Source of the DNA: Streptomyces sp. MMG1121
GTDB lineage: Bacteria > Actinomycetota > Actinomycetes > Streptomycetales > Streptomycetaceae
Length of the DNA: 64,000 nt
Reading direction: 5' to 3'
Assembly (NCBI RefSeq): GCF_001280015.1
Contig: NZ_LGDV01000107.1
Span: forward strand, 1-64,000
Translations under genes and position numbers: made by a program
The notes under the pieces: generated by a model
Told to the model about the DNA's origin: nothing
The model's input: the letters and a program-made list of their open reading frames with translations, nothing else
The model's database searches: none
Part shown: positions 8,690-50,704 of the stretch, one piece after another
Numbering within the stretch: the first letter of the stretch is position 1
Layout of the letters: each line of letters starts with the position of its first letter

Positions 8690-8713
8690 CCGTCCGCTCC
8701 TTCGGTCGTCCAC

Positions 8714-8729
8714 ACCCCCGTTCGGGGGT
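8714..8729. promoter_or_regulatory. Palindromic operator in divergent promoter region
   Basis: ACCCCCG-TT-CGGGGGT is a perfect 7+2+7 inverted repeat in the 116-bp gap between the GAF-LuxR gene and the acyl-CoA ligase operon. NarL/LuxR-type helix-turn-helix proteins bind such symmetric sites, so the GAF-LuxR protein is the obvious candidate. Confidence 0.5.
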
Positions 8730-8805
8730 AGTGAGACCTGCATCACGGATTAGACGATGCCAGAGAGCCGCCCGGCAATGGTCGGGAACAACAGGAGGAC
8801 AACCG

Positions 8806-10479
8806 ATGACGACGGCGACGGAGCTGTTCCGCAGGGCCCGGGACTTCCTGCTGGAGCACCGCGAGGACTACCCGGCCGCCTGTGCGGGCTTCACCTGGCC
8901 GCGGCCCGCGCACTTCAACTGGGCGCTGGACTGGTTCGACGTGATCGCCTCCGGCAACGACCGGACCGCACTGCACATCGTCGAGGAGGACGGCGGCGCA
9001 AGGCGGCTCTCCTTCGCCGAACTGGCCGAACGCTCCGACCGGGTGGCGAACCACCTGCGCGCGCGGGGCGTCGCCGCCGAGGACCGCATCCTCGTCATGC
9101 TCGGCAACCAGGCCGAACTGTGGGAGACCGCGCTGGCCGCGATGAAGCTGCGCGCCGTCGTCATCCCGGCCACTCCGCTGCTCGGCCCGGCCGACCTCGG
9201 CGACCGGGTGGAGCGGGGCCGGGTGAAGCACGTGATCGCGCGGACCGAGGACGCCGCCAAGTTCGCCGAGGTGCCCGGCGGTTACACCCGCATCGCGGTC
9301 GGCGGGGCGCCCGGGCCGGGCTGGGAGCCGTACGAGGACGCGTACACCGCTTCCGCGGCGTTCGTGCCGGACGGCCCGACCCTGGCCGACGACCCGCTGA
9401 TGCTGTACTTCACCTCCGGTACGACGGCCCGCCCCAAGCTGGTCGAGCACACCCACACCTCGTACCCGATCGGGCATCTGGCGACCATGTACTGGATCGG
9501 CCTGAAACCCGGCGACGTGCATCTGAACATCTCCTCGCCCGGCTGGGCCAAGCACGCCTGGTCCAATCTGTTCGCGCCGTGGAACGCCGAGGCGACCGTC
9601 TTCATCCACAACTACACGCGCTTCGACGCGGGCCGGCTGATGGCCGAGATGGACCGGCACCGGGTGACCTCCTTCTGCGCCCCGCCGACGGTGTGGCGGA
9701 TGCTGATCCAGGCCGACCTCGCCCAGCTGCGCACCCCGCCCCGGGAGGTCGTGGCGGCGGGCGAACCGCTGAACCCCGAGGTGATCGAGCAGGTCCGGCG
9801 GGCCTGGGGCGTCACCGTCCGGGACGGCTTCGGGCAGACCGAGACCGCCGTCCAGGTCTCCAACAGCCCCGGGCAGGTGCTCAAGACCGGCTCCATGGGC
9901 CGGCCGAGCCCCGGCTACCGCGTCGAACTCCTCGACCCGGTCTCCGGCGCGCCCGGCGCCGCCGAGGGCGAGATCGCCCTCGACCTGTCCGAGCGCCCGG
10001 TCGGCCTGATGACCGGCTACCACGGCGATCCGGACCGTACGGCCGAGGCGATGGCGGGCGGCTACTACCGCACCGGCGACATCGCCGCCCGGGACGCGGA
10101 CGGCTATCTGACCTACGTCGGCCGCGCGGACGACGTCTTCAAGGCCTCCGACTACAAGATCAGCCCGTTCGAGCTGGAGAGCGCGTTGCTGGAGCACGAG
10201 GCGGTGGCCGAGGCGGCCGTGGTGCCCGCGCCGGACGAGCTGCGGCTCGCGGTGCCGAAGGCGTACGTCGTCCTCGCCGAGGGCTACGAGCCGGGACCGG
10301 ACACCGCCAAGGTCGTCTTCGACCACTCCCGCCAGGTGCTCGCCCCCTACAAGCGCATCCGCAGGCTGGAGTTCGGCGCGCTGCCCAAGACCGTCTCCGG
10401 AAAGATCCGCCGGATCGAGCTGCGCGAGGCGACGGCCCAGGGCTCCGCGAACGAGTACCGCGAGGAGGACTTCCGGTGA
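8806..10479 (+). CDS. AMP-forming acyl-CoA synthetase (medium-chain/benzoate-CoA-ligase-like)
   Basis: 557 aa. The ATG at 8806 follows a strong AGGAGGACA Shine-Dalgarno. It activates a carboxylic acid via acyl-AMP to an acyl-CoA. Visible adenylation core motifs are [20 protein letters not shown] (P-loop), [14 protein letters not shown] and the C-terminal [10 protein letters not shown] with the catalytic Lys. N-terminal features such as [12 protein letters not shown] resemble medium-chain acyl-CoA synthetases. Its stop overlaps the GTG of a second ligase, so the two are made together, presumably under the divergent GAF-LuxR regulator. The substrate is not deducible. Confidence 0.9.
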
Positions 10480-12068
10480 CCTCTCAGCCGTCGTACACGC
10501 ACGGGACCGGTTCCACCGCCCTGCTCGGCGACACCATCGGCGCCAACCTGGACCGTGCCGTGGCGACCTGGCCGGACCGCGAGGCGCTGGTCGACGTGCC
10601 CTCGGGGCGGCGCTGGACGTACGCCCAATTCCGGGACTCCGTCGAGGAGTTGGCGCAGGGGCTGGTCGCCGCCGGGATCGTCAAGGGCGACCGGGTGGGC
10701 ATCTGGGCGGTCAACTGCCCGGAATGGGTCCTGGTGCAGTACGCCACCGCCCGCATCGGCGCGATCATGGTGAACATCAACCCGGCGTACCGGACCCACG
10801 AGGTCGAGTACGTCCTGGGCCAGGCGGGGGTCTCCCTGCTCTTCGCCTCCCCGCGCCACAAGACAAGTGACTACCGGGCGATGGTCGGGCAAGTACGGGG
10901 AAACTGCCCGGAGTTGCGCGAGGTCGTGTACATCGGCGACCCGAGCTGGGAGGAGCTGCTCCGGCGGGGGACCGGTGACGCCCCGTACGCGGAGCTGTCC
11001 TGCGACGACCCCATCAACATCCAGTACACCTCGGGGACGACCGGCTTCCCGAAGGGCGCCACCCTGTCCCACCACAACATCCTCAACAACGCTTATTTCG
11101 TCGGGGAGTCGATCTCGTACACGGAGCAGGACAGGATCTGCGTCCCCGTCCCCTTCTACCACTGCTTCGGCATGGTGATGGGCAATCTGGCGGCCACCGC
11201 GCACGGCGCCTGCGTCGTCATCCCCGCGCCGTCCTTCGACCCGCGAGCGACCCTGGAGGCGGTGCAGCGCGAGCGGTGCACGTCCCTGTACGGCGTGCCG
11301 ACGATGTTCATCGCGGAGCTGAACCTGCCCGACTTCGCCTCCTACGACCTCTCCTCCCTGCGCACCGGCATCATGGCGGGCTCGCCCTGCCCGGTGGAGG
11401 TGATGAAGCGGGTCGTCGCCGAGATGCACATGGCGGAGGTCTCCATCTGCTACGGCATGACCGAGACGTCTCCGGTGTCGCTCCAGACCCGCGTCGACGA
11501 CGACCTCGAACACCGCACCGCCACCGTCGGCCGGGTCCTGCCGCACCTGGAGGTCAAGGTCGTCGACCCGGCCACCGGCGTCACCCGGCCACGCGGCACG
11601 GCGGGCGAGTTGTGCACCCGCGGCTACAGCGTGATGCTCGGCTACTGGAACGAGCCCCTGAAGACCGCCGAGGCCGCGGACGCGGGCCGCTGGATGCACA
11701 CCGGAGACCTGGCGGTGATGCGCGAGGACGGGTACGTCGAGATCGTCGGCCGCATCAAGGACATGATCATCCGGGGCGGCGAGAACATCTACCCGCGCGA
11801 GATCGAGGAGTTCCTCTACGCCCACCCGAAGATCAAGGACGTCCAGGTCGTCGGGGTGCCGCACGAGAGGTACGGCGAGGAGGTCCTCGCCTGCGTGATC
11901 CCGCAGGACCCCGCCGACCCGCCCACCCCGGCGGACCTGCGCGCCTTCTGCGAGGGCCGGCTCGCGCACTACAAGATCCCGAGCAGGCTCCAGATCCTCG
12001 ACGCCTTCCCGATGACGGTGTCCGGGAAGGTGCGCAAGATCGAACTGCGGGAGACGTACGGGGGATGA
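10476..12068 (+). CDS. AMP-binding fatty-acyl-CoA synthetase (FadD/YngI-like)
   Basis: 530 aa. The GTG at 10476 overlaps the upstream stop in a GTGA, indicating translational coupling. Adenylation motifs are [38 protein letters not shown], the [16 protein letters not shown] hinge and [12 protein letters not shown] with the catalytic Lys. The overall pattern is that of the FadD-like acyl-CoA synthetases common in actinobacteria. Two different ligases in one operon suggest successive or alternative activation of related acids, for example in fatty or aromatic acid catabolism. Confidence 0.92.
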
Positions 12069-39110: not shown

Positions 39111-40685
39111 ATGGACGACGTGGACGACGTGTTCGGCCCCCAGGACGAAGAACGAATGGATCGCGTGGACCTCACACCCCCCACCGATGCCGTCGGCCGC
39201 CGCGCCGACGCGTACGCGGCCGCGCCCCTGCTCAACTGTCTGCTGCGCGAGGTGGCCGAGCCGCTCCCCGGCCCGGACCCGGACCCGGCCGAGGCCCCCG
39301 GCCCCGGTCACCACCGGGTCCACCGGCTGCCGAGCGGCCGGCTGCTGCGGGTACGGGCCGGGCGGCGCCCCGCAGACCCCGAGGTCCGCGCGGCCGGGAT
39401 CTGGCACCCCCTCGGCCATACCGAACTGGTCAAACTGGTCGCCGAGGAGCTGCGCCGGCGCACCGGGCTGCCCGGCGGCGACCTGCCCGCCGAGATGGTC
39501 GACAGCCGGGACGCGGTCGCCGCGCTGCTCACCGCCCGCGCCGGGGCGACCGCACCCGCCGACCCCTATCTGCGCTCCGAGCAGTCCCTGATCACCGGCC
39601 ACCCCTACCACCCGGCCCCCAAGGCGCGCGGCGGCGGCCCGGTCGCGTCCTGGCTGCCGTACGCCCCCGAGGCGTACGCCCGCTTCCCGCTCGTGCTGCT
39701 CGGCGTCCGCGAGGACCAGGTCGCCGAGGAGGGCGACACCCGGGCCCTGGACGCCCTCGGCACCGCCCCGCCCGGCTACCGGCTGCTGCCCGCCCATCCC
39801 TGGCAGCTCGACCTGGTCGCCCGCGAGCTCGCCCCGGCCTTCGCCGACGGCCGTCTGGTCCGGCTCGGCGTCACCGCCTTCGACGCCTGGCCGACGGCCG
39901 CGATCCGCACGGTCTACGCACCCCGGCGCGACCTCTTCCTGAAGTTCAGCCTGGATGCGCGGATCACCAACGACATCCGCCGCCTGTGGCGCCACGACCT
40001 GCGGCGACTGCGCCGTACCGACACAGCCGCCGGGCGCGCCTTCGCGGCCATGGGCCCGCCCGCGGCCTGGCTGAGCGACCGCGGCTACCGTACGGCCGCC
40101 TTCGCCTTCGAGGAACTGGCGGTGCTCGTCCGCGACGGTCTGCGCGGCCACCTCCCGCCCGGCGCCACCCCGCTGCTCGCGGCCGGACTCGCCGAGGGCT
40201 TCGACGGCAGCCCGCTGGCCGCCGCGGCCGATCCGGCCGCCTGGTGGGAGGCGTATCTGCGCCAGGTCGTGCCGCCCGCCCTCACGGCGTTCGACGCCCA
40301 CGGGGTCGTCGTCGAGGCCCATCTGCAGAACACGCTCGTCGCCGTGGACGCGGCCGGCACCCCCGTGCAGGCGCTGTTCCGGGACGCCGAGGGCGTCAAG
40401 CTGCTGCCGGACGTGTCCCGCGCCGCGGGCTGGGAGCGGCTGGTGTACTGCCTGGTGGTGAACCACCTCACCGAGATCGCCGCGGCCCTCGCCGAGCACC
40501 ACCCCGGCCTCGACCCCTGGCCCGCCGCCCGCCGCGAACTCGCCCGGCACGCCCTGCCCGAGATCCCCGCCCTGCTCGCCTCGCGCACGCTGCCCGGCAA
40601 GACCAACCTGCTGCTGCGCTGGACAGGCGCGGACGGCGCGGACGCCCGCTATCTGCCCCTGCCGAACCCGCTCGCGGGCGGCTGA
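39111..40685 (+). CDS. Second IucA/IucC-family NIS siderophore synthetase
   Basis: 524 aa from ATG 39111; ATG 39156 is an alternative start. It has the same fold as the divergent protein at 37402: LITGHPYHPAPKARGG, YRLLPAHPWQLDLV, LFLKFSLDARITNDIRRLW, VVEAHLQNTLVAV, and FRDAEGVKLLPD, which is better conserved than in its partner. The C-terminus is RYLPLPNPLA, and the partner ends almost the same way (SLPNPLVLE). Two diverged synthetases suggest two successive condensations on one scaffold. I found no DmdR-type iron box in the gap between them. Confidence 0.92.
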   Translation: MDDVDDVFGPQDEERMDRVDLTPPTDAVGRRADAYAAAPLLNCLLREVAEPLPGPDPDPAEAPGPGHHRVHRLPSGRLLRVRAGRRPADPEVRAAGIWHPLGHTELVKLVAEELRRRTGLPGGDLPAEMVDSRDAVAALLTARAGATAPADPYLRSEQSLITGHPYHPAPKARGGGPVASWLPYAPEAYARFPLVLLGVREDQVAEEGDTRALDALGTAPPGYRLLPAHPWQLDLVARELAPAFADGRLVRLGVTAFDAWPTAAIRTVYAPRRDLFLKFSLDARITNDIRRLWRHDLRRLRRTDTAAGRAFAAMGPPAAWLSDRGYRTAAFAFEELAVLVRDGLRGHLPPGATPLLAAGLAEGFDGSPLAAAADPAAWWEAYLRQVVPPALTAFDAHGVVVEAHLQNTLVAVDAAGTPVQALFRDAEGVKLLPDVSRAAGWERLVYCLVVNHLTEIAAALAEHHPGLDPWPAARRELARHALPEIPALLASRTLPGKTNLLLRWTGADGADARYLPLPNPLAGG

Positions 40686-40731
40686 CCCGCCCGGGCCCGG
40701 CGATCTGCCGACGCTCGGGCGGGCCGGACGT

Positions 40732-40743
40732 TATGCTGTGCGC
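40732..40743 (+). promoter_or_regulatory. Promoter for leaderless trp leader transcript
   Basis: A -10 box TATGCT (40732-40737) lies 7 bases before the leader ATG, so the transcript probably begins with that ATG. The -35 is weak (CCGACG-like). Confidence 0.55.
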
Positions 40744-40785
40744 ATGCATCTTTCGTCATGTCTGAGCTGGTGGCGCTCCGGTTAG
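40744..40785 (+). CDS. Trp-Trp leader peptide of the trpS attenuator
   Basis: A 13-residue open reading frame, MHLSSCLSWWRSG, with two adjacent TGG codons (40768-40773) and a stop at 40783-40785. It starts at the predicted transcription start, so it is leaderless. Directly after the Trp codons come three mutually exclusive RNA stems. CGCTCC (40774-40779) pairs with GGAGCG (40785-40790), CGGCC (40789-40793) pairs with GGCCG (40812-40816), and the terminator stem lies at 40811-40832. This is ribosome-mediated attenuation: slow translation of the Trp codons, when charged tRNA-Trp is scarce, should favour 2:3 pairing and let transcription reach trpS. Such control has been described for the auxiliary resistant TrpRS of S. 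coelicolor. Confidence 0.88.
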   Translation: MHLSSCLSWWRSG

Positions 40786-40810
40786 GAGCGGCCGACTCGC
40801 GTGCATGACC

Positions 40811-40832
40811 GGGCCGTTCGGAAGGACGGCCC
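40811..40832 (+). terminator. Attenuator terminator hairpin before trpS
   Basis: GGGCCGT (40811-40817) pairs with ACGGCCC (40826-40832) around an 8-nt loop, followed by a short TTCT. Its left arm can instead pair with 40789-40793, which defines the antiterminator. Confidence 0.8.
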
Positions 40833-40898
40833 TTCTGCGTCCCCCTGGACCAGGGCCCGTGCCATTCTGACGGCGAGACCGACCCACCAGGAGACGTT

Positions 40899-42011
40899 GT
40901 GAACACCACGCCCCAGGCCGTTGGCCCCGACGCCACTGCCGCAGGTCCCTCCGCCGACTCGCTCGGGACCTCCGCCGCGCAGGCCCGCAGTGCGGTGCTG
41001 GAGGAACTGATCCTCAAGGACCCCGGACGATTCCGCATGCTGACGGGCGACCGCCCCACCGGCCGCCTGCACCTGGGACACTACTTCGGCACGCTGCACA
41101 ACCGCGTCCGGCTCCAGGACCTCGGCGTCGAGACGTTCGTGATCATCGCGGACTACCAGGTCCTGACCGACCGCGACGTGGCGGACAACCTGACCGGGCA
41201 CGTCGAGGACCTCGTACTGGACTACCTCGCCATCGGCGTGGACCCGGCGCGCAGCACGATCTTCACGCACAGCGCCATCCCCGCCCTCAACCAGCTGATG
41301 CTGCCCTTCCTCAGCCTCGTCTCCGTCGCCGAACTGGGCCGCAACCCCACGGTCAAGGACGAGATCGCCCACTCGCGCCAGTCCGCGGTGAGCGGCCTGA
41401 TGTTCACCTACCCCGTCCACCAGGCCGCCGACATCCTCTTCTGCAAGGGCAACCTGGTGCCGGTCGGCCAGGACCAGCTCCCGCACCTCGAGGTCACCCG
41501 CACCATCGCCCGTCGCTTCAACGACCGCTACGGCAACGGCACTCCGGTCTTCCCCCAGCCCGACGCCCTGCTCTCCAACGCACCGCTCCTGCTCGGCACG
41601 GACGGCACCAAGATGAGCAAGAGCCGCCGCAACGCCATCACCCTGGCCTCCGACGCCGACGAGACGGCCCGGCTGCTCAAGGGCGCCAAGACGGACTCCG
41701 AGCGGCACATCACCTACGACCCGGAGCACCGCCCCGAGGTGTCCTCCCTGCTCCTGCTGGCGGCCCTCTGCCAGAACCGGACCCCCGAGGACGTGGCCGC
41801 CGGCATCGGCTCCGCGGGCGCCGCCGCGCTGAAGAAGACCGTGACCGAGGCGGTCAACGAGTATCTGGCGCCGATCAGGGCCCGCCGCACCGAGTACGCA
41901 CAGGACCGCGCCTACCTGCAGCGGACGCTGCGCGAGGGCAACGAGCGCGCCAGGGCCGTGGCCGACGCCACGCTCGCCGAGGTGCGGGCCGCGATGAACA
42001 GCCACTACTGA
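40899..42011 (+). CDS. trpS: Auxiliary, inhibitor-resistant-type tryptophanyl-tRNA synthetase
   Basis: 370 aa, GTG 40899 with AGGAG upstream. It charges tRNA-Trp. Class I motifs are HLGHY at 58-62 (HIGH equivalent) and KMSKS at 238-242. Where Bacillus-type TrpRS has DQHAIT, this protein has DYQVLT, so Gln87 appears to replace the His whose mutation is known to give indolmycin resistance. The ~45-residue N-terminal extension is typical of the auxiliary TrpRS1 group. With the leader peptide upstream and the sulfur-indole biosynthetic genes downstream, the best reading is a self-resistance target copy induced when the antibiotic blocks the housekeeping enzyme. Confidence 0.92.
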   Translation: MNTTPQAVGPDATAAGPSADSLGTSAAQARSAVLEELILKDPGRFRMLTGDRPTGRLHLGHYFGTLHNRVRLQDLGVETFVIIADYQVLTDRDVADNLTGHVEDLVLDYLAIGVDPARSTIFTHSAIPALNQLMLPFLSLVSVAELGRNPTVKDEIAHSRQSAVSGLMFTYPVHQAADILFCKGNLVPVGQDQLPHLEVTRTIARRFNDRYGNGTPVFPQPDALLSNAPLLLGTDGTKMSKSRRNAITLASDADETARLLKGAKTDSERHITYDPEHRPEVSSLLLLAALCQNRTPEDVAAGIGSAGAAALKKTVTEAVNEYLAPIRARRTEYAQDRAYLQRTLREGNERARAVADATLAEVRAAMNSHY

Positions 42012-42028
42012 CGCGCCCGCGCCACCCC

Positions 42029-42059
42029 GGCCCGGTCCCGTACGTCACGGGGCCGGGCC
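42029..42059 (+). terminator. trpS terminator
   Basis: A 13-bp stem (42029-42041 with 42047-42059, one G-U pair, 5-nt loop), followed by a T-rich TCTTCGTGT. It isolates trpS from the biosynthetic operon. Confidence 0.8.
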
Positions 42060-42096
42060 TCTTCGTGTGCGCTCCCCACAGAAACGCCTCACAAAC

Positions 42097-42159
42097 GGTC
42101 CAGGACCCCTCGAGAGCGATCCAGGAACCCTCGAGAACGATTCGAGGTCCCCGGGACAC
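42097..42159 (+). promoter_or_regulatory. Three 21-bp direct repeats upstream of the biosynthetic operon
   Basis: Units starting at 42097, 42118 and 42139 share G(A/G)T(C/T)C(A/G)(A/G)G(G/A) followed by CCCTCGAG-like sequence; the first two are ~86 percent alike. They are followed by CCTCGTTTGAGG (42160-42171), an inverted repeat. The spacing of two helical turns suggests tandem binding sites for a regulator encoded elsewhere. Confidence 0.5.
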
Positions 42160-42205
42160 CCTCGTTTGAGGTCAGCTCGACCGTGGTTCAGCTGGGGAGG
42201 CACAG

Positions 42206-42841
42206 GTGACAGGACTGTACGGCGACCTGCCGGAGACCGTCCGATTCGAACCCGAACCGGCCCGACGTTTTATGAACAACGCCGTGCGAGAAGCCCAGAA
42301 ATGTCTGGACAGCCGGGACGCCGACGGCGTGCCCAGCCATCTGCCGCGTGCGTCGGGTCTCCTTTTCGGACGGTCGGACGCCACGGAGATCACGATCAGC
42401 CACATCGAATTCGTGCCCAATGTCCGTGATCGTGACGAGAGCGTCATCGCCGAATTCGAAGGGACCATCGCCCCGCAGTTCGGCGAGGTGTACCGGAACC
42501 CGGGGCGAGGATTCTGGTCCGACGAGAAGGGCGTCCTGCGGGCCGTCATGGAACAGTCCGCGAACGGTCTGGAGCTGATGGGCTCCATCCATTCGCATCC
42601 CAACTGGCACGAAATCGGCCCGCCGCACGAACGGTTCCAGGAACTGAGTGAGCACCCGACCCGGATGGACGAATACCTTTTCCGCCAGTCCTGCTGGCCG
42701 GTCAACGTGATCTGGTACGTCCGGTCGACCGGTGACGGTATGGCGCACCGGGTAGCGGGCTGGCGGCCCGGTCCGGAGCACTGCGGCAGGCTCGACATCC
42801 GGATCCCGTCGGCGATCCACCAGGAATTTTCCGTCGCATGA
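42206..42841 (+). CDS. JAMM/MPN+ metalloprotein, sulfur-carrier processing or sulfurtransferase
   Basis: 211 aa, GTG 42206 with GGGGAGG five bases upstream. It has a JAB1/MPN fold with the zinc site GSIHSHP (His129, His131) and a strand GLLFGRS. The canonical spacing to Ser-x2-Asp is not kept; instead Thr152-x2-Asp155 follows after a 12-residue insertion, so the metal site is probably present but re-shaped. JAMM proteins next to ThiS/MoaD-like carriers trim the carrier C-terminus, and I recall that in chuangxinmycin biosynthesis the JAMM protein Cxm3 acts as a deubiquitinase-like sulfurtransferase. The adjacent carrier has exactly such an extension. It is the first gene of a five-gene operon. 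Confidence 0.88.
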   Translation: MTGLYGDLPETVRFEPEPARRFMNNAVREAQKCLDSRDADGVPSHLPRASGLLFGRSDATEITISHIEFVPNVRDRDESVIAEFEGTIAPQFGEVYRNPGRGFWSDEKGVLRAVMEQSANGLELMGSIHSHPNWHEIGPPHERFQELSEHPTRMDEYLFRQSCWPVNVIWYVRSTGDGMAHRVAGWRPGPEHCGRLDIRIPSAIHQEFSVA

Positions 42842-42854
42842 GGGAGGAAAAGAA

Positions 42855-43202
42855 ATGACGAACGTCGTGCAGAGTGTCGGCAAGAGCCTTTCGGTGCCGA
42901 CCGTGACCGTCAAGCTTCCCGCCGCTTTCCATGTGCTGACCGGAGGCCGGAGGCAGCTGCCAGGCGAGGGCGAGAACATTCGCGACGTACTGGTGGACGT
43001 CGACCGGGAGTGTCCCGGCGTACTGGATCGGCTGATGGACCAGGAAGGGTCCGTGAAGCGTTACGTCAACGTCTACCGGAACGACAACGACATCAGGGGC
43101 CTCGACGGGCTCGAGACGAAAGTGGAGAACCAGGACGTCATCTGGATCGTGCCGGCGGTCGCGGGCGGCAGCGGAACGGCACGAATCGAGGAGTCACGAT
43201 GA
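42855..43202 (+). CDS. MoaD/ThiS-like sulfur carrier with masked Gly-Gly
   Basis: 115 aa, ATG 42855, with GAGGGAGGAAA overlapping the end of the JAMM gene. It is a ubiquitin-like beta-grasp protein: TVTVKLPAAFHVLTGG at the N-terminus, RYVNVYRNDNDIRGLDGLET, and VIWIVPAVAGG at residues ~96-105, close to MoaD and CysO. The functional C-terminal Gly104-Gly105 is followed by ten residues, SGTARIEESR, so it cannot be thiocarboxylated until trimmed; the JAMM protein encoded just upstream is the expected protease. Once activated by an E1-like enzyme from elsewhere it would carry sulfur as a thiocarboxylate. Its stop overlaps the P450 start. Confidence 0.92.
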   Translation: MTNVVQSVGKSLSVPTVTVKLPAAFHVLTGGRRQLPGEGENIRDVLVDVDRECPGVLDRLMDQEGSVKRYVNVYRNDNDIRGLDGLETKVENQDVIWIVPAVAGGSGTARIEESR

Positions 43203-44413
43203 CGGACGTCATTCCCACGGAATTCTTCACCCAGCCCGGGGCGAATCCGCACGCGGCGGCCGCCGAGCTGAGGTCCAGGTGCCCGGTGCACCGGATCGAC
43301 GTTCCGCCCGGCGCCGAGGCGTACGCGGTCCTCGGCAACAAGGTCGTCGAGGAGGCGCTCGGCGATGCGCGCCTGTCCAAGCAGGTCGAGAACCTGCCCG
43401 CCCGCTACCGGCACCGGGCCGTGACCAACAGCCTGCTCGTCGTGGGCAACCTCGGCTTCGCCGACCCGCCCAAGCACACCCGGCTGAAGAAGCCCATCAG
43501 CCGCGCGTTCCTGCCGTCCCGGGTCGCCCGGCTCCGGCCCCGTGTCCAGGCCATCGTCGACGACCTCATCGACGCCTTCCCGGAGAACGGTGAGATCGAC
43601 CTGCTGACCGAATTCGCGCTGCCGCTGCCGCTCACCGTCATCTGCGAGTACCTGGGGATACCCATGGCGGACCGGCCGCTGTTCCTGGAGTGGAGCTACG
43701 TCCTCAGCCAGGATCCGCTGCAGCACGACGAGGCCGAACTGAAGGCGGCCAGCGAGGAGTTCTCGGACTACTTCACCCAGCTGGTGGCCGAGCGGCGCAA
43801 GGACCTGCGCGACGACCTGCTGAGCGAGATCATCAGGGCCAGGGACGCCGGTGTGTACAGCGAACAGGAGCTGCTGTCGACGCTGCTGCTGCTGATCATC
43901 GCCGGGCACAAGACGGTGGCCAACATGCTCGGCAACGGAACGGCCCTGCTGCTCCGCCATCCCGGGCAACTCGCCCTGCTCCGCGCCCGACCCGAACTGA
44001 TTCCCTCCGCGATCGAGGAGATCCTGCGCTACGAGGGGTCGGCCGCCTGGGCCTCGATGCGGATCGCGGCCGAGGACATGCACCTCGGGGGAGTGGACAT
44101 CCCCAAGGGCAGCTTCGTCCACCTGTCGCTGTCCAGCGCGGGCCACGATCCCGACGTGTACGACGACCCGGAACGCTTCGACGTCACCCGGTCACCGAAC
44201 CGGCACCTGTCCTTCGGTCACGGCCCGCACTTCTGCATCGGTGCCCCGCTGGGCCGGCTCCAGGGCGAGATCGCCTTCTCCACGCTGCTGCGCCGGCTGC
44301 CGAGGCTCGAACTCGCCGTGCCGCCACAGGAGATCGCCTGGCTCTCCGACAGTTCGCTCAGCCGGGGTCTGGAGTCCCTGCCCCTGCGCGTGGGAAAGCG
44401 GCTGCCCCGATGA
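43199..44413 (+). CDS. Cytochrome P450, candidate C-S bond-forming enzyme
   Basis: 404 aa, ATG 43199 in an overlap with the carrier gene. It has an ExxR motif at 274-277 (EEILR) and a haem-binding loop FGHGPHFCIGAPLGR with Cys346. The I-helix reads IIAGHKTVANM: the usual acid of AG-x-(D/E)-T is Lys238, with Thr239 retained, so proton delivery for O2 activation should be unusual. In chuangxinmycin a P450 closes the sulfur bridge onto indole C4, and this gene's place behind the sulfur-carrier genes fits that role. Soluble class; redox partners are not in the window. Confidence 0.93.
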   Translation: MTDVIPTEFFTQPGANPHAAAAELRSRCPVHRIDVPPGAEAYAVLGNKVVEEALGDARLSKQVENLPARYRHRAVTNSLLVVGNLGFADPPKHTRLKKPISRAFLPSRVARLRPRVQAIVDDLIDAFPENGEIDLLTEFALPLPLTVICEYLGIPMADRPLFLEWSYVLSQDPLQHDEAELKAASEEFSDYFTQLVAERRKDLRDDLLSEIIRARDAGVYSEQELLSTLLLLIIAGHKTVANMLGNGTALLLRHPGQLALLRARPELIPSAIEEILRYEGSAAWASMRIAAEDMHLGGVDIPKGSFVHLSLSSAGHDPDVYDDPERFDVTRSPNRHLSFGHGPHFCIGAPLGRLQGEIAFSTLLRRLPRLELAVPPQEIAWLSDSSLSRGLESLPLRVGKRLPR

Positions 44414-44454
44414 CCAGGGAATCGATGACCAGGGAATCGGTGACCGGGGAAGCG
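44410..44454 (+). repeat. Triplicated 15-bp start region
   Basis: ATGACCAGGGAATCG occurs twice in tandem, then GTGACCGGGGAAGCG. Each unit brings an in-frame start codon, so the reductase can begin at 44410, 44425 or 44440. The first overlaps the P450 stop. Confidence 0.9.
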
Positions 44455-45393
44455 GACGGTCCGAGCATCGCCGTGGTGGGCGCCGGCGCGGTGGGCGGCT
44501 ATCTCGGCGGCCGGCTCGCCGCCGCCGGGCACGATGTGCGCTTCCTGGCGCGCGGCGAGAACCTCGCCGCGCTCCGGCGACAGGGGCTGCGCGTCGTCGC
44601 CGGCTCCGGCGACGAGGTCATACCCGAGGTGCGGGCGTCGGACGACCCGCACGACCTCGGCGAGGTCGACTACGTCCTGCTCTGCGTGAAGACCTCGCAG
44701 CTGCCGGCGGCCGTCGACGCGCTGCCCCCACTGGTCGGTGCGGGCACGGCCGTCGTCACCGTGCAGAACGGGGTGGAGGCACCCGAGCAGGTCGCGGCCG
44801 CGATCGGCCGCGACCGGGTCCTTCCCGGCACGGTCAGGGTCGTCGCCACGACGATCCGCCCGGGCGAGGTACGACACGTGGGTCCCCCCGGCGCGCTGGG
44901 CTTCGCCGAGTGGGACGGCGACGTGACCAAGCGGGTGCTGCGACTGCGCGAACTGCTCAGTGCCGCCACGATGACGGCGACGGAGCCGAGCGACATCTGG
45001 GCCGAGCTGTGGGCGAAGTTCCTGCTGCTGGTCCCGATCGGCAGCCTCGGAGCCGCCACCGGCGGCGCGACCGTCGGCGAACTCCGCTCGCGCCCCGGCA
45101 CCCGCGGACTGCTGATCGCCGGCATGCGGGAGATCCACGAGACCGCCCTCGGACTCGGGATCGCACTGCCGGACGATGCCGTGGAGCGGGCGGCAGGACT
45201 CATGGACCGGCAGTCGGCCGACGTCACCACCTCGCTGCAACGGGACATCCTGGCGGGCAGGCCGTCGGAGCTGGAGGCCTGGACCGGGGCCGCCGTCCGC
45301 CTCGCCGCCCGGGCGGGGAGGACCGCACCCGTCCACGAGACGCTCTACGAACTGCTCGCCACGCGGGCGTCGCTGACAGAACGGACTCTTTGA
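44410..45393 (+). CDS. Ketopantoate-reductase-like (PanE/ApbA family) dehydrogenase
   Basis: 327 aa from ATG 44410. The N-terminal Rossmann motif is VVGAGAVGGYLGGRLAAAGH (~20-39). Further PanE features are DYVLLCVKTSQLPAAVDAL, VTVQNGVEAPE, and the catalytic Lys in ELWAKFLLLVPIG near 198; the C-terminal helical domain ends with a SELEAWTGAAVRLA segment. Ketopantoate reductases act on alpha-keto acids. In a sulfur-indole pathway a likely job is reduction of a methyl-indolepyruvate-derived thioketone to the alpha-thiol. This is an inference, and a true pantothenate role is unlikely in this operon. Confidence 0.85.
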   Translation: MTRESMTRESVTGEADGPSIAVVGAGAVGGYLGGRLAAAGHDVRFLARGENLAALRRQGLRVVAGSGDEVIPEVRASDDPHDLGEVDYVLLCVKTSQLPAAVDALPPLVGAGTAVVTVQNGVEAPEQVAAAIGRDRVLPGTVRVVATTIRPGEVRHVGPPGALGFAEWDGDVTKRVLRLRELLSAATMTATEPSDIWAELWAKFLLLVPIGSLGAATGGATVGELRSRPGTRGLLIAGMREIHETALGLGIALPDDAVERAAGLMDRQSADVTTSLQRDILAGRPSELEAWTGAAVRLAARAGRTAPVHETLYELLATRASLTERTL

Positions 45394-45425
45394 CACCCGA
45401 CCGGCACTCACGAGGAGTCCGAGCG

Positions 45426-46511
45426 ATGAACGTGAGGTTCGCAGAACGCGGCACCCTGCGCGAGGTGAACGCCTACCGGGCCACGGAGTCGGCGGCCGCC
45501 GGGCGTTCTCCCGTCACCTTCGACCTGTCCAGCAACGAACTGGCTCTTCCCCCACTGCCCACCGCGCTCGCCGTCATCGAGGAGGGCCTGACCCGGCTCG
45601 CCCGCTACCCCGACCCGACCGCCCGGGCCCTGACCGAGGAGATCGCCGGTCATCTGCGCCTTCGCGCGGACGAGGTGGCGGTCGGCCCCGGCAGCGCGGG
45701 TGTGCTCCAGCAGATCCTGCTCGCCCTGTGCGGCGAGGGCGACGAAGTCGTCTACGCCTGGCCGGGGTTCGACGCGTATCCCCTGCTGGTCGCCATCTCC
45801 GGCGCCACCGGCGTCCACGTCCCGCTGACGTCGTCGGGGGAGCACGATCTCGACGGGATCCGGGCCGCGGTCGGTGCGCGGACGAGGGTGGTGATCCTGT
45901 GCTCCCCGCACAATCCGACCGGAACGGTGATCGACCGCGACCGGCTGCACCGTTTCCTGCACGCACTTCCGGACCACGTGGTGACGGTCCTGGACGAGGC
46001 GTACGTGGAGTTCGACCGGGGCGGTGACCCCCCGGGCACGCCGGAGGTGATGCGCGCGCACGGCAACACCGTGGTGCTGCGCACCTTCTCCAAGGCCTAC
46101 GGGCTGGCTGGTCTGCGGGTCGGATACGCGGCCGGACCCCGGCAGGTCATCTCCACCGTCCGCAAGACGGCGCTGCCGTTCGGCGTGACACACATCGCCG
46201 AACAGGCCGCGATCCTGTCCCTGCACAGCGCGGCCGAACTACGCGAACGCCTGGCTGCGGTGACCGCCGCGCGCGAGGAACTGACCGCAGCATTAAGGCA
46301 ATTGGGGCTGCCGGTCCTGCCGTCCCGCGCCAACTTCGTCTGGCTCCCGCTCCCTTCGGCCGCCGAGTCCCTCGCCCGGACGGCGGCCACGGCAGGGGTC
46401 CGGGTCCGGGCCTGCCCGGGGTACGGCGTACGGATCTCCGTGGGAGAGGCCGAGGCGCATCGAGCACTGCTGACAGCGCTCGGCGGGGCAGCCCGCGGGA
46501 ATTGGTTCTAG
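45426..46511 (+). CDS. HisC-like PLP aminotransferase, candidate tryptophan transaminase
   Basis: 361 aa, ATG 45426 with GAGGAG nine bases upstream, 32 nt after the reductase. It is a fold-type I aminotransferase of the histidinol-phosphate/aromatic group: DLSSNELALPP, ARYPDPTARALTEEIA, CSPHNPTGTVI, VLDEAYVEF and the PLP Lys223 in RTFSKAYGLAGLRVGY. HisC relatives accept aromatic amino acids, so formation of indole-3-pyruvate from tryptophan, the first step toward chuangxinmycin or indolmycin, is proposed. A strong terminator follows, which ends the operon. Confidence 0.88.
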   Translation: MNVRFAERGTLREVNAYRATESAAAGRSPVTFDLSSNELALPPLPTALAVIEEGLTRLARYPDPTARALTEEIAGHLRLRADEVAVGPGSAGVLQQILLALCGEGDEVVYAWPGFDAYPLLVAISGATGVHVPLTSSGEHDLDGIRAAVGARTRVVILCSPHNPTGTVIDRDRLHRFLHALPDHVVTVLDEAYVEFDRGGDPPGTPEVMRAHGNTVVLRTFSKAYGLAGLRVGYAAGPRQVISTVRKTALPFGVTHIAEQAAILSLHSAAELRERLAAVTAAREELTAALRQLGLPVLPSRANFVWLPLPSAAESLARTAATAGVRVRACPGYGVRISVGEAEAHRALLTALGGAARGNWF

Positions 46512-46518
46512 GACGTCT

Positions 46519-46564
46519 GGAATGCGGCCGGAGTGCTGCTCGAATTCACTCCCGGCCGTATTCC
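46519..46564 (+). terminator. Long terminator after the five-gene operon
   Basis: Arms 46519-46535 and 46547-46564 form a 17-bp stem with one G-U pair and one bulged base around an 11-nt loop. Confidence 0.82.
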
Positions 46565-46634
46565 GCGCCCGCTTCTTCCGAGTAATCTCGGGACAGCTTT
46601 CATTTGCCCGTCCCCCTGCAGTTCGCAGACTTCC

Positions 46635-46640
46635 TAGGGT
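46635..46640 (+). promoter_or_regulatory. -10 box for the radical SAM gene
   Basis: TAGGGT at 46635-46640 lies 9 bases before the GTG at 46650, so the second biosynthetic transcript is leaderless or nearly so. No good -35 is visible, which suggests activator dependence. Confidence 0.4.
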
Positions 46641-46649
46641 AGGCATCCT

Positions 46650-48521
46650 GTGAAAATCCTGATGATCGCCATGCCGTGGCAAGGGCTCGACACACCGTCC
46701 AGCGCACTGGGAATCCTGGGGCCGTGCGTGCGGAGAAACGCCGCCGACTGGACCGTCGACGTGCTGTACGCCAACCTCGGCTGGGCCGAACACCTGATGC
46801 GGGAGAGCGACGGCTCCATCACGACGTCGGATTACGGGAACATCGCGGATCAGGTGTTCCACGGCGTGGGCGACTGGGTGTTCACTTCGGCGCTGTACGA
46901 CGTCGACAGCCATATGGCCGACGAGTACTCCGCGTTCCTCGAACAACGGGACATCGACCCTGCGCTTCCCGTGCAGATGCACAGGTACGCCCGGGGATTC
47001 GTCCGGGACCTGGCGGCCGAGATCGCCGCCGATCCGCCGGACGTCGTCGGGTTCACGACCACCTTCATGCAGAACGTGCCGTCCCTCGCCCTGGCCAGGG
47101 AGCTGAAGAGGCGCGCACCCGGCATCCGCACGGTACTCGGCGGCAGTAACTGCGACGGAGCGCAGGGCCCCGCCCTGCACCGGAATTTCGAGCAGCTCGA
47201 CTACGTGATCAGCGGCGAGGGCGAGCGTGCCCTGCCCGCGCTGCTCAACCGCATCGCCAAGGGCAGGAGCGTCGCCGACGTCCCGGGGCTCAGCTGGCGC
47301 GGGGACGACGGACAGACGGTGGTGAACCCGCCGGCCCAGGGCGCCATCCCGTTCGCCGCGGTGCCCGCGCCCGACTACGACGCCTACTTCCGGGCGCTCG
47401 CCGACTCCTCCCTCCGGGACCACGTCAGCCCGATGCTGGTGCTGGAGACCTCCCGAGGCTGCTGGTGGGGAGAGGCCCACCAGTGCACGTTCTGCGGCCT
47501 GAACGGATCGAACATCGATTTCCGCAGCAAGGCCCCCGAACGGATCGCCCAGGAAGTCCGGGATCTCGCCGAGCGCCATCAGGTCCTCGACATGGTGATG
47601 GTGGACAACATCCTGGACCTGAAATATCTCAACACGGCCATGCCGGAGATAGCCGCCCTCGACTGTGATCTGCGCATCCACTACGAGATCAAGTCCAACA
47701 TGAACCGGGAGCAGTTGAGCAAACTGAAAGAAGCGAACGTCCTGTTCGTACAGCCCGGTATCGAGAGCCTCAGCAGTCATGTGCTGCGCCTCATGGACAA
47801 GGGCGTCAGCGCCGCGCACAACGTACGCATGCTGCGCGACGGACAGGATCTCGGTCTCAACGTGACCTGGAGCATTCTCTACGGCTTCCCCGGCGAGACA
47901 GAGGACGACTACCGCGCCCTGCTCGGAAAAATGGCCACGCTCGAACACCTGGAACCGCCGACCGGGGCCTGGCGCATCGCGCTGGAGCGGTTCAGCCCCT
48001 ACTTCGAGGATCCCAGCCAGGGATTCATGTTCCGCCGTCCGTCCGAGATCTACGACTTCATCTACCAGGTCCCCCGGAACGAGCTGTACGACATGGTGTT
48101 CTTCTTCGACACCAGCGTCCAGGGAATCTCGGGGTCCATCGAGGACGAGATGAAGCAGGCGTGCGAGGAATGGGCCAAGGCATACCCGCACAGCACCCTC
48201 TCCTACTGGACCGACGACCGGGGCCGCGTCGTCATCGAGGACCGCCGCGCCAGCTGGCCGGAGGAGGTCATCGAGCTGGACGACGTCCAGAGCAACGTCT
48301 ACCTCGGCATGTTCCAGGGCGCCGGCCTCCAGGGAGTACGCCGACGGCTGGCCGGCAGCGGACACGTCGTCGCGGACGCGGACATCGAGGAGACGCTCCG
48401 CTACTTCGTCGAACGCGGCCTGGCCTTCGAGGACGAAGGGCGCTACGTCAGCGTCGCGCTCGAGATCGACCCGTACCGACGGAAGCTGGTCGAGGGCAAG
48501 GAGGTCATGGCATGTCGATGA
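46650..48521 (+). CDS. B12-binding radical SAM C-methyltransferase
   Basis: 623 aa, GTG 46650. The N-terminal ~200 residues are a cobalamin-binding-like Rossmann domain (ILMIAMPWQGLDTPSSALGI, DVVGFTTTFMQNVPSLALAR, TVLGGSNCDG). The radical SAM barrel follows with SRGCWWGEAHQCTFCGLNG: Cys271, Cys279 and Cys282, a CX7CX2C cluster motif instead of CX3CX2C, as in the RiPP-maturation rSAM C-methyltransferase family. Helical C-terminal domain. No RiPP precursor is nearby; in chuangxinmycin such an enzyme methylates the beta carbon of indolepyruvate, which I take as its role here. It is translationally coupled to the DUF5825 gene. Confidence 0.92.
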   Translation: MKILMIAMPWQGLDTPSSALGILGPCVRRNAADWTVDVLYANLGWAEHLMRESDGSITTSDYGNIADQVFHGVGDWVFTSALYDVDSHMADEYSAFLEQRDIDPALPVQMHRYARGFVRDLAAEIAADPPDVVGFTTTFMQNVPSLALARELKRRAPGIRTVLGGSNCDGAQGPALHRNFEQLDYVISGEGERALPALLNRIAKGRSVADVPGLSWRGDDGQTVVNPPAQGAIPFAAVPAPDYDAYFRALADSSLRDHVSPMLVLETSRGCWWGEAHQCTFCGLNGSNIDFRSKAPERIAQEVRDLAERHQVLDMVMVDNILDLKYLNTAMPEIAALDCDLRIHYEIKSNMNREQLSKLKEANVLFVQPGIESLSSHVLRLMDKGVSAAHNVRMLRDGQDLGLNVTWSILYGFPGETEDDYRALLGKMATLEHLEPPTGAWRIALERFSPYFEDPSQGFMFRRPSEIYDFIYQVPRNELYDMVFFFDTSVQGISGSIEDEMKQACEEWAKAYPHSTLSYWTDDRGRVVIEDRRASWPEEVIELDDVQSNVYLGMFQGAGLQGVRRRLAGSGHVVADADIEETLRYFVERGLAFEDEGRYVSVALEIDPYRRKLVEGKEVMACR

Positions 48522-49240
48522 GCACGCTGCTGGACATCGGTGAACTCAGGGCACGGGCCGAGGACGAGGCACGCGTACCGGACGGTGGCCGGCCCGCGGC
48601 CGCGACGCTGACCCTCGGGGCCGACGGGGAAGCGCTTCCCGCCGCCACGGAGCTGGCGGCGCTGCTGCCCCGCGTACCCGTCGCCGGAGTGCGGCTGGCG
48701 CGGCCCGCCGACTTCTCGGCGCTCCCCGGTGACGAGATCGCGCGGATCATCGCGTTGCTCCGCGAATGCTCCTCGACCGGCGCCCGCGTCATCTGGTCCC
48801 TGGTCCTTGGTGCGCGGCAGCTCGACCTGATCCCACGGCTCGACCATCTGCCCGCCCCCGAGACGATCACGGTGGCGGGGCGGGGGACCACGTCCGCCGG
48901 CGAGTGGCGGTCCGCCCGCAATTTCGGCCTGCTCCACTTCCGCAAGGGCCCGGCGTTCCTGTCCGTCGTGGACGAGCGCCCCGAGTCCTGCGACCGGATC
49001 ATCATCGACGATCCCGCCACCACGGAGGTCTTCCTCCAGGGCCTGGAGGGATGCGCCTGGACCGAGCTGACCCGCGACCCGCGCCACGCGGCCGCAGCGC
49101 GGGACCTGGCGGCCAAGGGCCTGCTCCTGCGCGTCGGGGACCACGCCGTGACGCTGCCGGTGCACATGCGTGCGTGGCCCCTGGGAGCGGCCCTCCTGGG
49201 CGGAACGCTGGCGTCGGCCGGAAAGAAGAAGGACGAGTGA
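48512..49240 (+). CDS. DUF5825-type partner of the radical SAM enzyme
   Basis: 242 aa, ATG 48512 (or 48518), overlapping the radical SAM stop, with a strong AAGGAGGTC site. The core alternates strands and helices (TELAALLPRVPVAGVRLARP, IARIIALLRECSSTGARVIWSL, HFRKGPAFLSVVDERPES). The last ~55 residues resemble a winged helix followed by a hydrophobic tail. Proteins of this type (DUF5825) travel with rSAM C-methyltransferases, and I recall an essential auxiliary protein in chuangxinmycin C-methylation. The tight coupling supports a two-subunit enzyme. Confidence 0.8.
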   Translation: MSMSTLLDIGELRARAEDEARVPDGGRPAAATLTLGADGEALPAATELAALLPRVPVAGVRLARPADFSALPGDEIARIIALLRECSSTGARVIWSLVLGARQLDLIPRLDHLPAPETITVAGRGTTSAGEWRSARNFGLLHFRKGPAFLSVVDERPESCDRIIIDDPATTEVFLQGLEGCAWTELTRDPRHAAAARDLAAKGLLLRVGDHAVTLPVHMRAWPLGAALLGGTLASAGKKKDE

Positions 49241-49792
49241 CGGAGCGCCCCGCAAGGGGCGCGAGGACGGCGCGACCCGCCGTCCGGCACGAGGTTCGCG
49301 ACGATGCGGACCAGGCCCGGGCGGCGCACGCCGGTGGACGACGGATCACCGCGGTCCGCCCGGCGGCGGGCCGTCGACGCCCAGGCCCCGCACTGCCCGG
49401 ACCGCCGATGCCCCTCGCGTCGATCGATCCGCCCAGGTCGGACAGGTTCATCAGCCGGCCCCGCCGGTCGTAGGGCGACCACCGGCAGCACCCGCGGGTG
49501 CCGGGTGAGCGCGGAACTGCCGAGCCGGCCCTGCTGCCCGGCCGCGACGACCGTGATCACGCCCGGGCGCGCCGCGTGGTCCAGCGCCGGCCGGTCGTCC
49601 CCCAGGACGACGAGACCGCGGTGTGCGAAGGGGAGGGCGCCACCATGCCGGAGCTCTGCCCCGGCCGCTGCGGCGCACCCGGTGCCCGGCCGCCGTACGC
49701 GTGCCGGCAGTGCCGTGCGGACTGCACGAGCCACTGCGTTTCCGACCACTCCCACTGACGCGCGTTCTTCCCCGGCTGTCACGCTTGGTCGT
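49241..49792. other. Gene-poor gap at the right edge of the biosynthetic cluster
   Basis: No intact gene. Most of it is the decayed subtilase described separately. A plus-strand frame at 49645-49758 would give a 37-residue Cys-rich peptide (six Cys in its last 25 residues), but it is antisense to the relic and has no clear Shine-Dalgarno. Confidence 0.55.
49290..49640 (-). pseudogene. Decayed S8 (subtilisin-like) peptidase fragment
   Basis: On the minus strand, ~49455-49620 reads ALDHAARPGVITVVAAG, then QQGRLGSSALTRHPRVLPVVA, which matches the oxyanion-hole region of PatA/PatG-like subtilases, where AAGNQG is usual (here Asn is Gln). One base-frame shift near 49466-49470 is needed to continue into RGRLMNLSDLGGSIDARGI then GGPGSAG, the expected following segment (SNLG-SIGRRG-APG). 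No catalytic Asp, His or Ser region survives. The edges are approximate. It is a relic left beside the biosynthetic cluster. Confidence 0.6.
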
Positions 49793-50704
49793 ATGAGAGA
49801 GGTTGCTGCAACCCGCTACATCGCACCCCTGCGCTCCGGTGGCTCCGTCCCCGCAGTCGTCGAGGCCGACGATCTCGGCACGTACGTGGTGAAGTTCACC
49901 GGCTCGGCGCAGGGGCACAAGGCGCTGGTCGCCGAGGTGATCGTCGGTGAACTCGCCCGCGCGCTCGGCCTGCGCTTCCCGGAGCTGGTCCTCGTCCACT
50001 TCGACCCGGCGATCGCCGCGGACGAGCCCCACCAGGAGGTCCGGGAGCTGCACGGCGCGAGCGTGGGCGTGAACCTCGGGATGGACCATCTGCCGGGCGC
50101 CGCCGACTTCACGCCCGAGATCGCGAAGAGCTTCCCCGTGGACCCGCTGGAGGCGGGCCGGATCGTCTGGCTGGACGCGCTGACCGTCAACGTGGACCGG
50201 ACGGTGCACAGCTCCAACCTCATGGTCTGGCCCACGCTCGGCACCGTACCGCCGCGCCTGTGGCTCATCGACCACGGCGCCGCCCTCGTCTTCCACCACC
50301 GCTGGGACACCACGGCCCCGGGCAAGAAGTACGACTTCCGGCAGCACGCCCTCGGCCACTACGGCCCCGACGTCCGCGCGGCCGACGCCGAACTGGCCCC
50401 CAAGGTCACGGAGGAACTGCTGCGGGGCATCGTCGCCGAGGTCCCCGACGCCTGGCTGGCGGAGGACGCCGGCTTCGCGACGCCCGACGACGTCCGCGCC
50501 GCCTACGTCGACTACCTCCTGGCCCGGGTGCGCCTGTCGGCCGAGTGGCTGCCCACCGACTTCCCGAGCCGCGAGCAACTCGCCGCCGAGGAGAGCGTCC
50601 GCGCGGCGAAGACCCGGGCGGACCGCCCGGACTGGCTCAAGCGCGTCCCCGACCTGCACGGCAAGCCGGCCGCGGAACAGGACTGGTCGGTGCACCTGGG
50701 CTGA
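49793..50704 (+). CDS. HipA-like kinase family protein
   Basis: 303 aa, ATG 49793. It has an N-terminal glycine-rich strand pair and Lys (GTYVVKFTGSAQGHKALVAEV), a central VWLDALTVNVDRTVHSSNLM (catalytic-loop-like Asp...Asn) and LWLIDHGAALVFHH (metal-binding Asp). This is the HipA-like kinase pattern found in standalone actinobacterial proteins. It lacks the HipB antitoxin partner, so it need not be a toxin. It is convergent with aceB across a strong shared terminator. Confidence 0.82.
   Translation: MREVAATRYIAPLRSGGSVPAVVEADDLGTYVVKFTGSAQGHKALVAEVIVGELARALGLRFPELVLVHFDPAIAADEPHQEVRELHGASVGVNLGMDHLPGAADFTPEIAKSFPVDPLEAGRIVWLDALTVNVDRTVHSSNLMVWPTLGTVPPRLWLIDHGAALVFHHRWDTTAPGKKYDFRQHALGHYGPDVRAADAELAPKVTEELLRGIVAEVPDAWLAEDAGFATPDDVRAAYVDYLLARVRLSAEWLPTDFPSREQLAAEESVRAAKTRADRPDWLKRVPDLHGKPAAEQDWSVHLG

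Follow-up and report, generated by a model that had tools for sequence, protein, structure and literature searches.

A predicted chuangxinmycin biosynthetic gene cluster and its likely resistance gene on one inserted segment in Streptomyces sp. MMG1121

Genes of the locus and their insertion

The window analyzed here is the 64,000-nucleotide stretch at positions 1 to 64,000 of contig NZ_LGDV01000107.1 of Streptomyces sp. MMG1121. Between positions 40744 and 49240, its plus strand carries eight genes in the order trpRS, cxnF, cxnE, cxnD, cxnC, cxnB, cxnA, and cxnA1. The first, trpRS (40899-42011), encodes an auxiliary tryptophanyl-tRNA synthetase (TrpRS) of 370 amino acids, which was assigned by Pfam (PF00579, tRNA-synt_1b) and, by its pocket residues, to the inhibitor-resistant type. 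It is followed by cxnF (42206-42841, start uncertain), encoding a JAMM deubiquitinase-like sulfurtransferase with an HSHP motif (H129-S-H-P), and by cxnE (42855-43202), encoding a ThiS/MoaD-like carrier (Pfam ThiS) that runs 10 residues past Gly-Gly with the tail SGTARIEESR. The next genes encode a C-S bond-forming cytochrome P450 (cxnD, 43199-44413; Pfam p450) and a ketopantoate-reductase-like NAD(P)H reductase (cxnC, 44410-45393; Pfam ApbA/ApbA_C, scanned from 44416). The start of cxnC is most likely the ATG at 44410, overlapping the cxnD stop. A HisC-like aminotransferase (cxnB, 45426-46511) was assigned by Pfam Aminotran_1_2 and by NCBIfam NF002878 (398.2 bits, cut-off 374), and a B12 radical S-adenosylmethionine (SAM) protein with a CX7CX2C motif (cxnA, 46650-48521) by Pfam Radical_SAM and B12-binding and by TIGR03975 (580.6 bits, cut-off 281.85). 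The last gene, cxnA1 (48518-49240; Pfam DUF5825), encodes the partner of CxnA. The cluster set used below comprised seven loci including the window, and the DUF5825 gene also lies 3' of the radical SAM gene in the six others. All eight genes of a preliminary description of this sequence were thus confirmed on the plus strand by Pfam and, for the JAMM protein, which had no Pfam or NCBIfam match at E ≤ 0.001, by sequence identity.

Four-base overlaps connect cxnE with cxnD and cxnA with cxnA1, and also cxnD with cxnC if the latter starts at 44410. Longer intergenic gaps were found 3' of trpRS (194 bases) and 3' of cxnB (138 bases). Because a strong hairpin is predicted in each of them, a division into three transcription units is more probable than the division into two that had been described. 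The hairpin after trpRS (42029-42059, plus strand; z -4.97) is GC-rich with 13 bp and is a possible terminator, and the one after cxnB has a z of -4.69. The consensus terminator scan, which missed the former, yielded no terminator on the plus strand.

The whole cluster lies on an inserted segment with the approximate limits 40692-49790. Four relatives (G020, G016, G007, and G013) have an empty site, in which the matches to the flanks of the window stop at 40675-40708, resume at 49813-49826, and lie 50-142 bp apart. The trpRS gene and its leader are inside the inserted part. The G+C content of positions 40692-49825 is 69.5%, compared with 73.4% and 71.1% in the flanks. An IucA/IucC-type gene borders the cluster on one side and a HipA-like gene, whose start is apparently 49793 as judged from the sequence, on the other. 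The genes directly beside the cluster had no match among the predicted genes of cluster loci L003-L006, and by inspection the neighbors of the cluster in genome G236 differ from those in the window. Genomes G011 and G003 carry other DNA at the insertion site, about 1.8 and 12.7 kb, respectively. The site seems to accept insertions, since the approximately 12.7 kb in G003 consists of other genes at the same place.

Two further observations concern these surroundings. The genes at the site in G003 (L098, 1261-12338) resemble sugar or polysaccharide enzymes by eye, and the HipA-like kinase gene of the window (49886-50704) matches PADLOC candidate PDC-M66A (E 4e-12).

Chuangxinmycin is a long-known TrpRS inhibitor that has attracted renewed interest against tuberculosis (PMC12087186). 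The Actinoplanes tsinanensis cluster (MIBiG BGC0001485; PMC12795557) comprises CxnA1, CxnA, CxnB, CxnC, CxnD, CxnE, and CxnF plus trpRS (PMC12087186), and the window carries the same set in a Streptomyces host. The window JAMM protein aligns over 99% of its length, with 77% identity, to the A. tsinanensis "JAMM metalloprotease" P0017, which itself matches Prok-JAB only below the threshold. CxnE shows 85% identity to A. tsinanensis P0197 over 84% of its length, and CxnD is identical to crystallized CxnD (PDB 6kfw) at 357 of 403 residues (88.6%). In the P450 tree, window CxnD and 6kfw fall within one five-row group (support 96). The gene set is not a chance assembly, because L003 and L048 carry all eight genes in the window order and L004, L005, and L006 carry seven of them. 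With the published gene set complete and three reference proteins matched at 77-89% identity, the chuangxinmycin-type assignment of the preliminary description holds. The region 40744-49240 is very probably a chuangxinmycin biosynthetic gene cluster that shares a single insertion of about 9.1 kb with a likely resistance gene; tryptophan is its predicted starting material and chuangxinmycin its predicted product. It is an additional example of the known cxn pathway; its less expected parts are the attenuator upstream of trpRS and the carriers that share a reading frame with a neighbor, both described below. In the openly licensed chuangxinmycin literature, as far as its text was available, no description of this cluster in Streptomyces was found, and its absence in print is not claimed.

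CxnA belongs to TIGR03975, a "RiPP maturation" family, and the locus might accordingly be a cluster for a ribosomally synthesized and posttranslationally modified peptide (RiPP), with a peptide as the substrate of the radical SAM/DUF5825 pair. Such B12 radical SAM and DUF5825 pairs occur in the clavusporin and biphenomycin-like RiPP pathways, and the clavusporin pair is reported for C-methylation (PMC12257519). A relative 47% identical to CxnA (L007) also adjoins a repetitive small peptide gene. However, only unremarkable small open reading frames were seen in the two longer gaps of the window, none of them recognizable as a convincing precursor, and the JAMM protein, carrier, and P450 match chuangxinmycin proteins with 77%, 85%, and 88.6% identity. 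Both a precursor gene and a lack of such homology had been named in the preliminary description as evidence that would speak for another pathway. The enzyme pair is the same as in these RiPP pathways, but its predicted substrate in the window is a small indole, not a peptide. We therefore give a RiPP cluster almost no credence.

The L007 locus of Nocardiopsis chromatogenes is RiPP-cluster-like in its own right. Its small peptide (8148-8345), with repeats like MIRSAAT, lies just before the radical SAM and DUF5825 genes (8425-10877).

The synthetase and its leader region

Two TrpRS genes, 35% identical to each other, were found in the MMG1121 genome. Within the genus, 36 of 199 genomes, MMG1121 among them, were listed with a gene at least 70% identical to the window TrpRS. 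No close CxnF was present in the remaining 35 genomes, and 29 of their genes (L050-L078) served as the solitary comparison set. Pocket positions of the E. coli enzyme, of which V42 and H45 contact chuangxinmycin (PMC12093056), were mapped onto the window TrpRS by motif. Three inhibitor-pocket positions are occupied by R, A, and Q in the window enzyme but by Q, V, and H in the housekeeping copy. The R and Q are common to 7/7 cluster and 29/29 solitary enzymes, and the A is found in 7/7 cluster and 24/29 solitary enzymes. The window enzyme is of the same kind as the indolmycin-resistant auxiliary TrpRS1 of Streptomyces (PMC9437257) but shares one insertion with a cluster for a TrpRS inhibitor. 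These residues suggest that the cluster TrpRS is likely to protect the cell.

With auxiliary enzymes present in 36 of 199 genomes, trpRS could also have been a pre-existing auxiliary gene of the strain beside which the cluster landed by chance. The placement of one solitary enzyme, L050, among the cluster enzymes in the TrpRS tree (SH-aLRT 87) is in line with this view. However, the empty site of the four relatives is too small to hold trpRS, the gene is present at 7/7 cluster loci, and a single origin of the cluster TrpRS was not rejected by the approximately unbiased (AU) test (p-AU 0.70; the tree holds the window twice, and the duplicate row, L090, was left free in the test). A chance association is thus very improbable, and trpRS is best regarded as part of the inserted cluster.

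Upstream of trpRS, the plus strand encodes the leader peptide MHLSSCLSWWRSG (40744-40785), which has two consecutive Trp codons. The start at 40744 in the preliminary description corresponds to the ATG of this leader, a real feature that its text did not mention. Three structures are predicted on the same strand: attenuator hairpin 1:2 (40774-40790), an antiterminator (40786-40819) in which 40786-40793 can pair with 40812-40819, and a terminator hairpin (40811-40832) that was recognized by conserved pairing and fold prediction and is followed by a short T-rich stretch. The antiterminator excludes both other hairpins. Trp leaders were found upstream of trpRS at 27 of the 36 loci examined (4/7 cluster and 23/29 solitary). 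Across the 27 aligned leaders, paired cells amount to 100% for both hairpin 1:2 and the terminator and to 99.1% for the antiterminator. The 102-nt leader region folds better than shuffled sequences (z -2.72, 2 of 200). With tandem Trp codons in the leader and a mutually exclusive antiterminator and terminator, the region has the features of a classical Trp attenuator. Attenuation of an S. coelicolor gene has reportedly been published by Vecchione and Sello. Classical attenuators upstream of trpS were predicted in some Streptomyces already in 2005 (PMC1262725), and the window leader is of the same Trp leader peptide-terminator type.

In the mechanism that we propose, inhibition of the housekeeping TrpRS by the product would leave tRNA-Trp uncharged, and this tRNA would make the ribosome stall on the pair of Trp codons in the leader. 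The antiterminator would then fold and allow transcription of the gene for the resistant TrpRS. We infer from these features that resistance may be inducible by uncharged tRNA-Trp.

Several observations weigh against the reading of the locus as a chuangxinmycin cluster with an inducible resistance gene. The sequence comparison with A. tsinanensis covers three of the proteins, CxnF, CxnE, and CxnD, whereas CxnB, CxnC, CxnA, and CxnA1 were assigned by Pfam/NCBIfam family and gene position. Three other chuangxinmycin contact positions (Y, D, and Q) are the same in cluster, solitary, and housekeeping TrpRS. The attenuator has no long T run, and the whole 165-nt upstream region folds hardly better than shuffled sequences (z -1.33, 21 of 200). 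Its covariation is thin, because there are only two compensated pairs, both in hairpin 1:2 and both in the same two sequences (L059 and L064), and 4/6 pairs of hairpin 1:2 and 5/8 pairs of the terminator are invariant. The leader was not found at 3/7 cluster loci (L004, L005, and L081) and 6/29 solitary loci; in the three cluster loci, part of the hairpin sequence remains by eye. Finally, the published cluster includes a LysR activator, cxnR (PMC12087186), whereas no LysR regulator was found among the ten flanking genes scanned in the window, a distant copy not having been sought. The comparison with A. tsinanensis that the preliminary description had called for therefore agrees in gene content and in the sequences of CxnF, CxnE, and CxnD (77-89% identity) but not in this regulator.

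Since no LysR gene lies among the ten flanking genes, expression of the cluster may be low or otherwise controlled. The cluster could even be intact but silent because its activator is missing. However, none of its genes is disrupted, and several genera have retained the cluster. In heterologous hosts, moreover, CxnA1-F alone gave the product, and Streptomyces hosts made it from the biosynthetic genes with a strong promoter (PMC12087186). A silent cluster therefore appears unlikely, and a functional chuangxinmycin cluster is preferred.

Predicted pathway and variation among relatives

In the published route, CxnB transaminates Trp, CxnF and CxnE supply sulfur, and CxnC reduces the thione; the P450 CxnD then closes the ring to give norchuangxinmycin, and CxnA with CxnA1 methylates last (PMC12087186). 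By analogy, CxnB of MMG1121 would convert Trp to indolepyruvate. After loss of its C-terminal tail, CxnE would be converted to the thiocarboxylate by a ThiF/rhodanese-type enzyme whose gene lies outside the cluster, at another place in the genome, and CxnF, the JAMM protein, would relay its sulfur. Reduction of the thione to the thiol would fall to CxnC and formation of the C-S bond of the ring to CxnD, and methylation by CxnA and CxnA1 would be the final step. We infer each enzymatic step in MMG1121, as well as CxnE tail removal, induction, and resistance. The enzyme roles given in the preliminary description agree with the published ones, but methylation had been placed before sulfur transfer and is published as the last step, on norchuangxinmycin. 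Three ThiF-family genes of the genome scored over the cut-off, and the best one has an apparent C-terminal rhodanese part by reading.

Genome contigs, with one genome per species and the MMG1121 genome possibly left out, were scanned with the window radical SAM protein, and 24 loci were obtained. Four of them, with 76-84% identity, belong to clusters, in Streptomyces sp. ISL-87, Micromonospora sp. MW-13, M. wenchangensis, and Labedaea rhizosphaerae. The remaining loci, 20 in number, show 42-48% identity to the window protein. At E ≤ 1e-5, DUF5825 was present at 14 of these 20 loci and a P450 (28-32% identity) at two (L007 and L025), and no other cxn gene was found. CxnF matches at E ≤ 1e-10 were obtained in 26 of 392 genomes of the genus; those in G000 and G236 (75%) are close, and the other 24 show 37-48% identity. 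The P450 was found at E ≤ 1e-150 in G000 and G475 among 394 genomes of the class, and a protein search at E ≤ 1e-10 listed 84 CxnF-like proteins, among them that of the window. The JAMM proteins 37-48% identical to CxnF (L029-L046 and L082-L085; 24/392 genomes of the genus) form a family. Four of its longer loci were read, and in L082, L083, and L085 the JAMM gene adjoins a gene for a small protein, similar among the three, with a glyoxalase-like appearance by eye.

The cluster varies among these relatives. L004, L005, and L006 lack cxnB, and the best aminotransferases elsewhere in their genomes are 41-45% identical; another enzyme would therefore have to serve in these strains. At L081 (G475), cxnA is interrupted by an IS66-type transposase gene, and norchuangxinmycin is consequently the predicted product there. 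Two more P450-like genes lie near the Labedaea cluster (L006, 8403-9620 and 5654-6913).

This split methylase gene, together with the published observation that norchuangxinmycin was initially the main product in an S. coelicolor host (PMC12087186), raises the question of whether the main product of MMG1121 is a related thiopyranoindole, norchuangxinmycin or another congener, instead of chuangxinmycin. However, cxnA and cxnA1 of the window are intact open frames, and cxnA retains its CX7CX2C motif. Such a congener is therefore an improbable main product, and chuangxinmycin remains the predicted one.

Carrier tails and shared reading frames

The CxnE tail is common in the carrier family. Among 67 CxnE-like proteins (P0187-P0253), 62 have residues past PAVAGG or its like, 58 of them starting with Ser, and five end at Gly-Gly. 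Among 38 distant MoaD-like proteins, counted by eye, 27 have Gly-Gly as their last residues, and the extension beyond it is at most three residues in any of the 38.

In 5 of the 59 close CxnD proteins (P0085-P0142 and P0160, the last partial), the carrier lies in the P450 frame (P0085-P0088 and P0160). Pfam recognized both the carrier and the P450 domain in P0085, P0087, and P0088, the three that were scanned. On the tree, this frame state needs four changes. There is no Met near the P450 N-terminus in P0085 (Labedaea) and P0086. The nearest in-frame start-type codon before the P450 N-terminus in the Labedaea frame is a GTG inside the carrier PAVAGG, with no ribosome-binding site visible; this GTG lowers the odds that the frame encodes a masked-carrier precursor. 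An internal P450 start is possible in P0087, P0088, and P0160. CxnF and CxnE are joined in one frame in P0060 and P0078, where an internal start could also be used. A different pair, DUF5825 (cxnA1) and JAMM (cxnF), shares one open frame in M. wenchangensis (L005, 11866-13236), with a possible internal GTG start.

The shared carrier frames are observed at the level of the reading frame and may reflect fusion and cleavage of the proteins. On this basis, the cxn system might be a bacterial case of ubiquitin-precursor-type processing, in which a short tail (window) or an entire P450 (Labedaea) would mask the Gly-Gly of the carrier and the JAMM protein would serve as both freeing protease and sulfurtransferase. 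The cluster would also sense its own antibiotic through the Trp attenuator on the resistance gene. We put this forward tentatively, as a proposal that may well not hold in full. Judged by listing, a search of openly licensed literature gave nothing on polyproteins or fusions of JAMM, sulfur carrier, and P450, and absence in print is not claimed.

The Streptomyces cluster is a source of the chuangxinmycin pathway in a tractable genus. The cxn family shows what varies in this pathway: the aminotransferase can be absent, the methylase split, and the carrier in frame with a neighbor. The shared carrier frames make the protease role of the JAMM protein testable, and the attenuator provides a testable case of self-resistance that would be turned on by the antibiotic's own effect.

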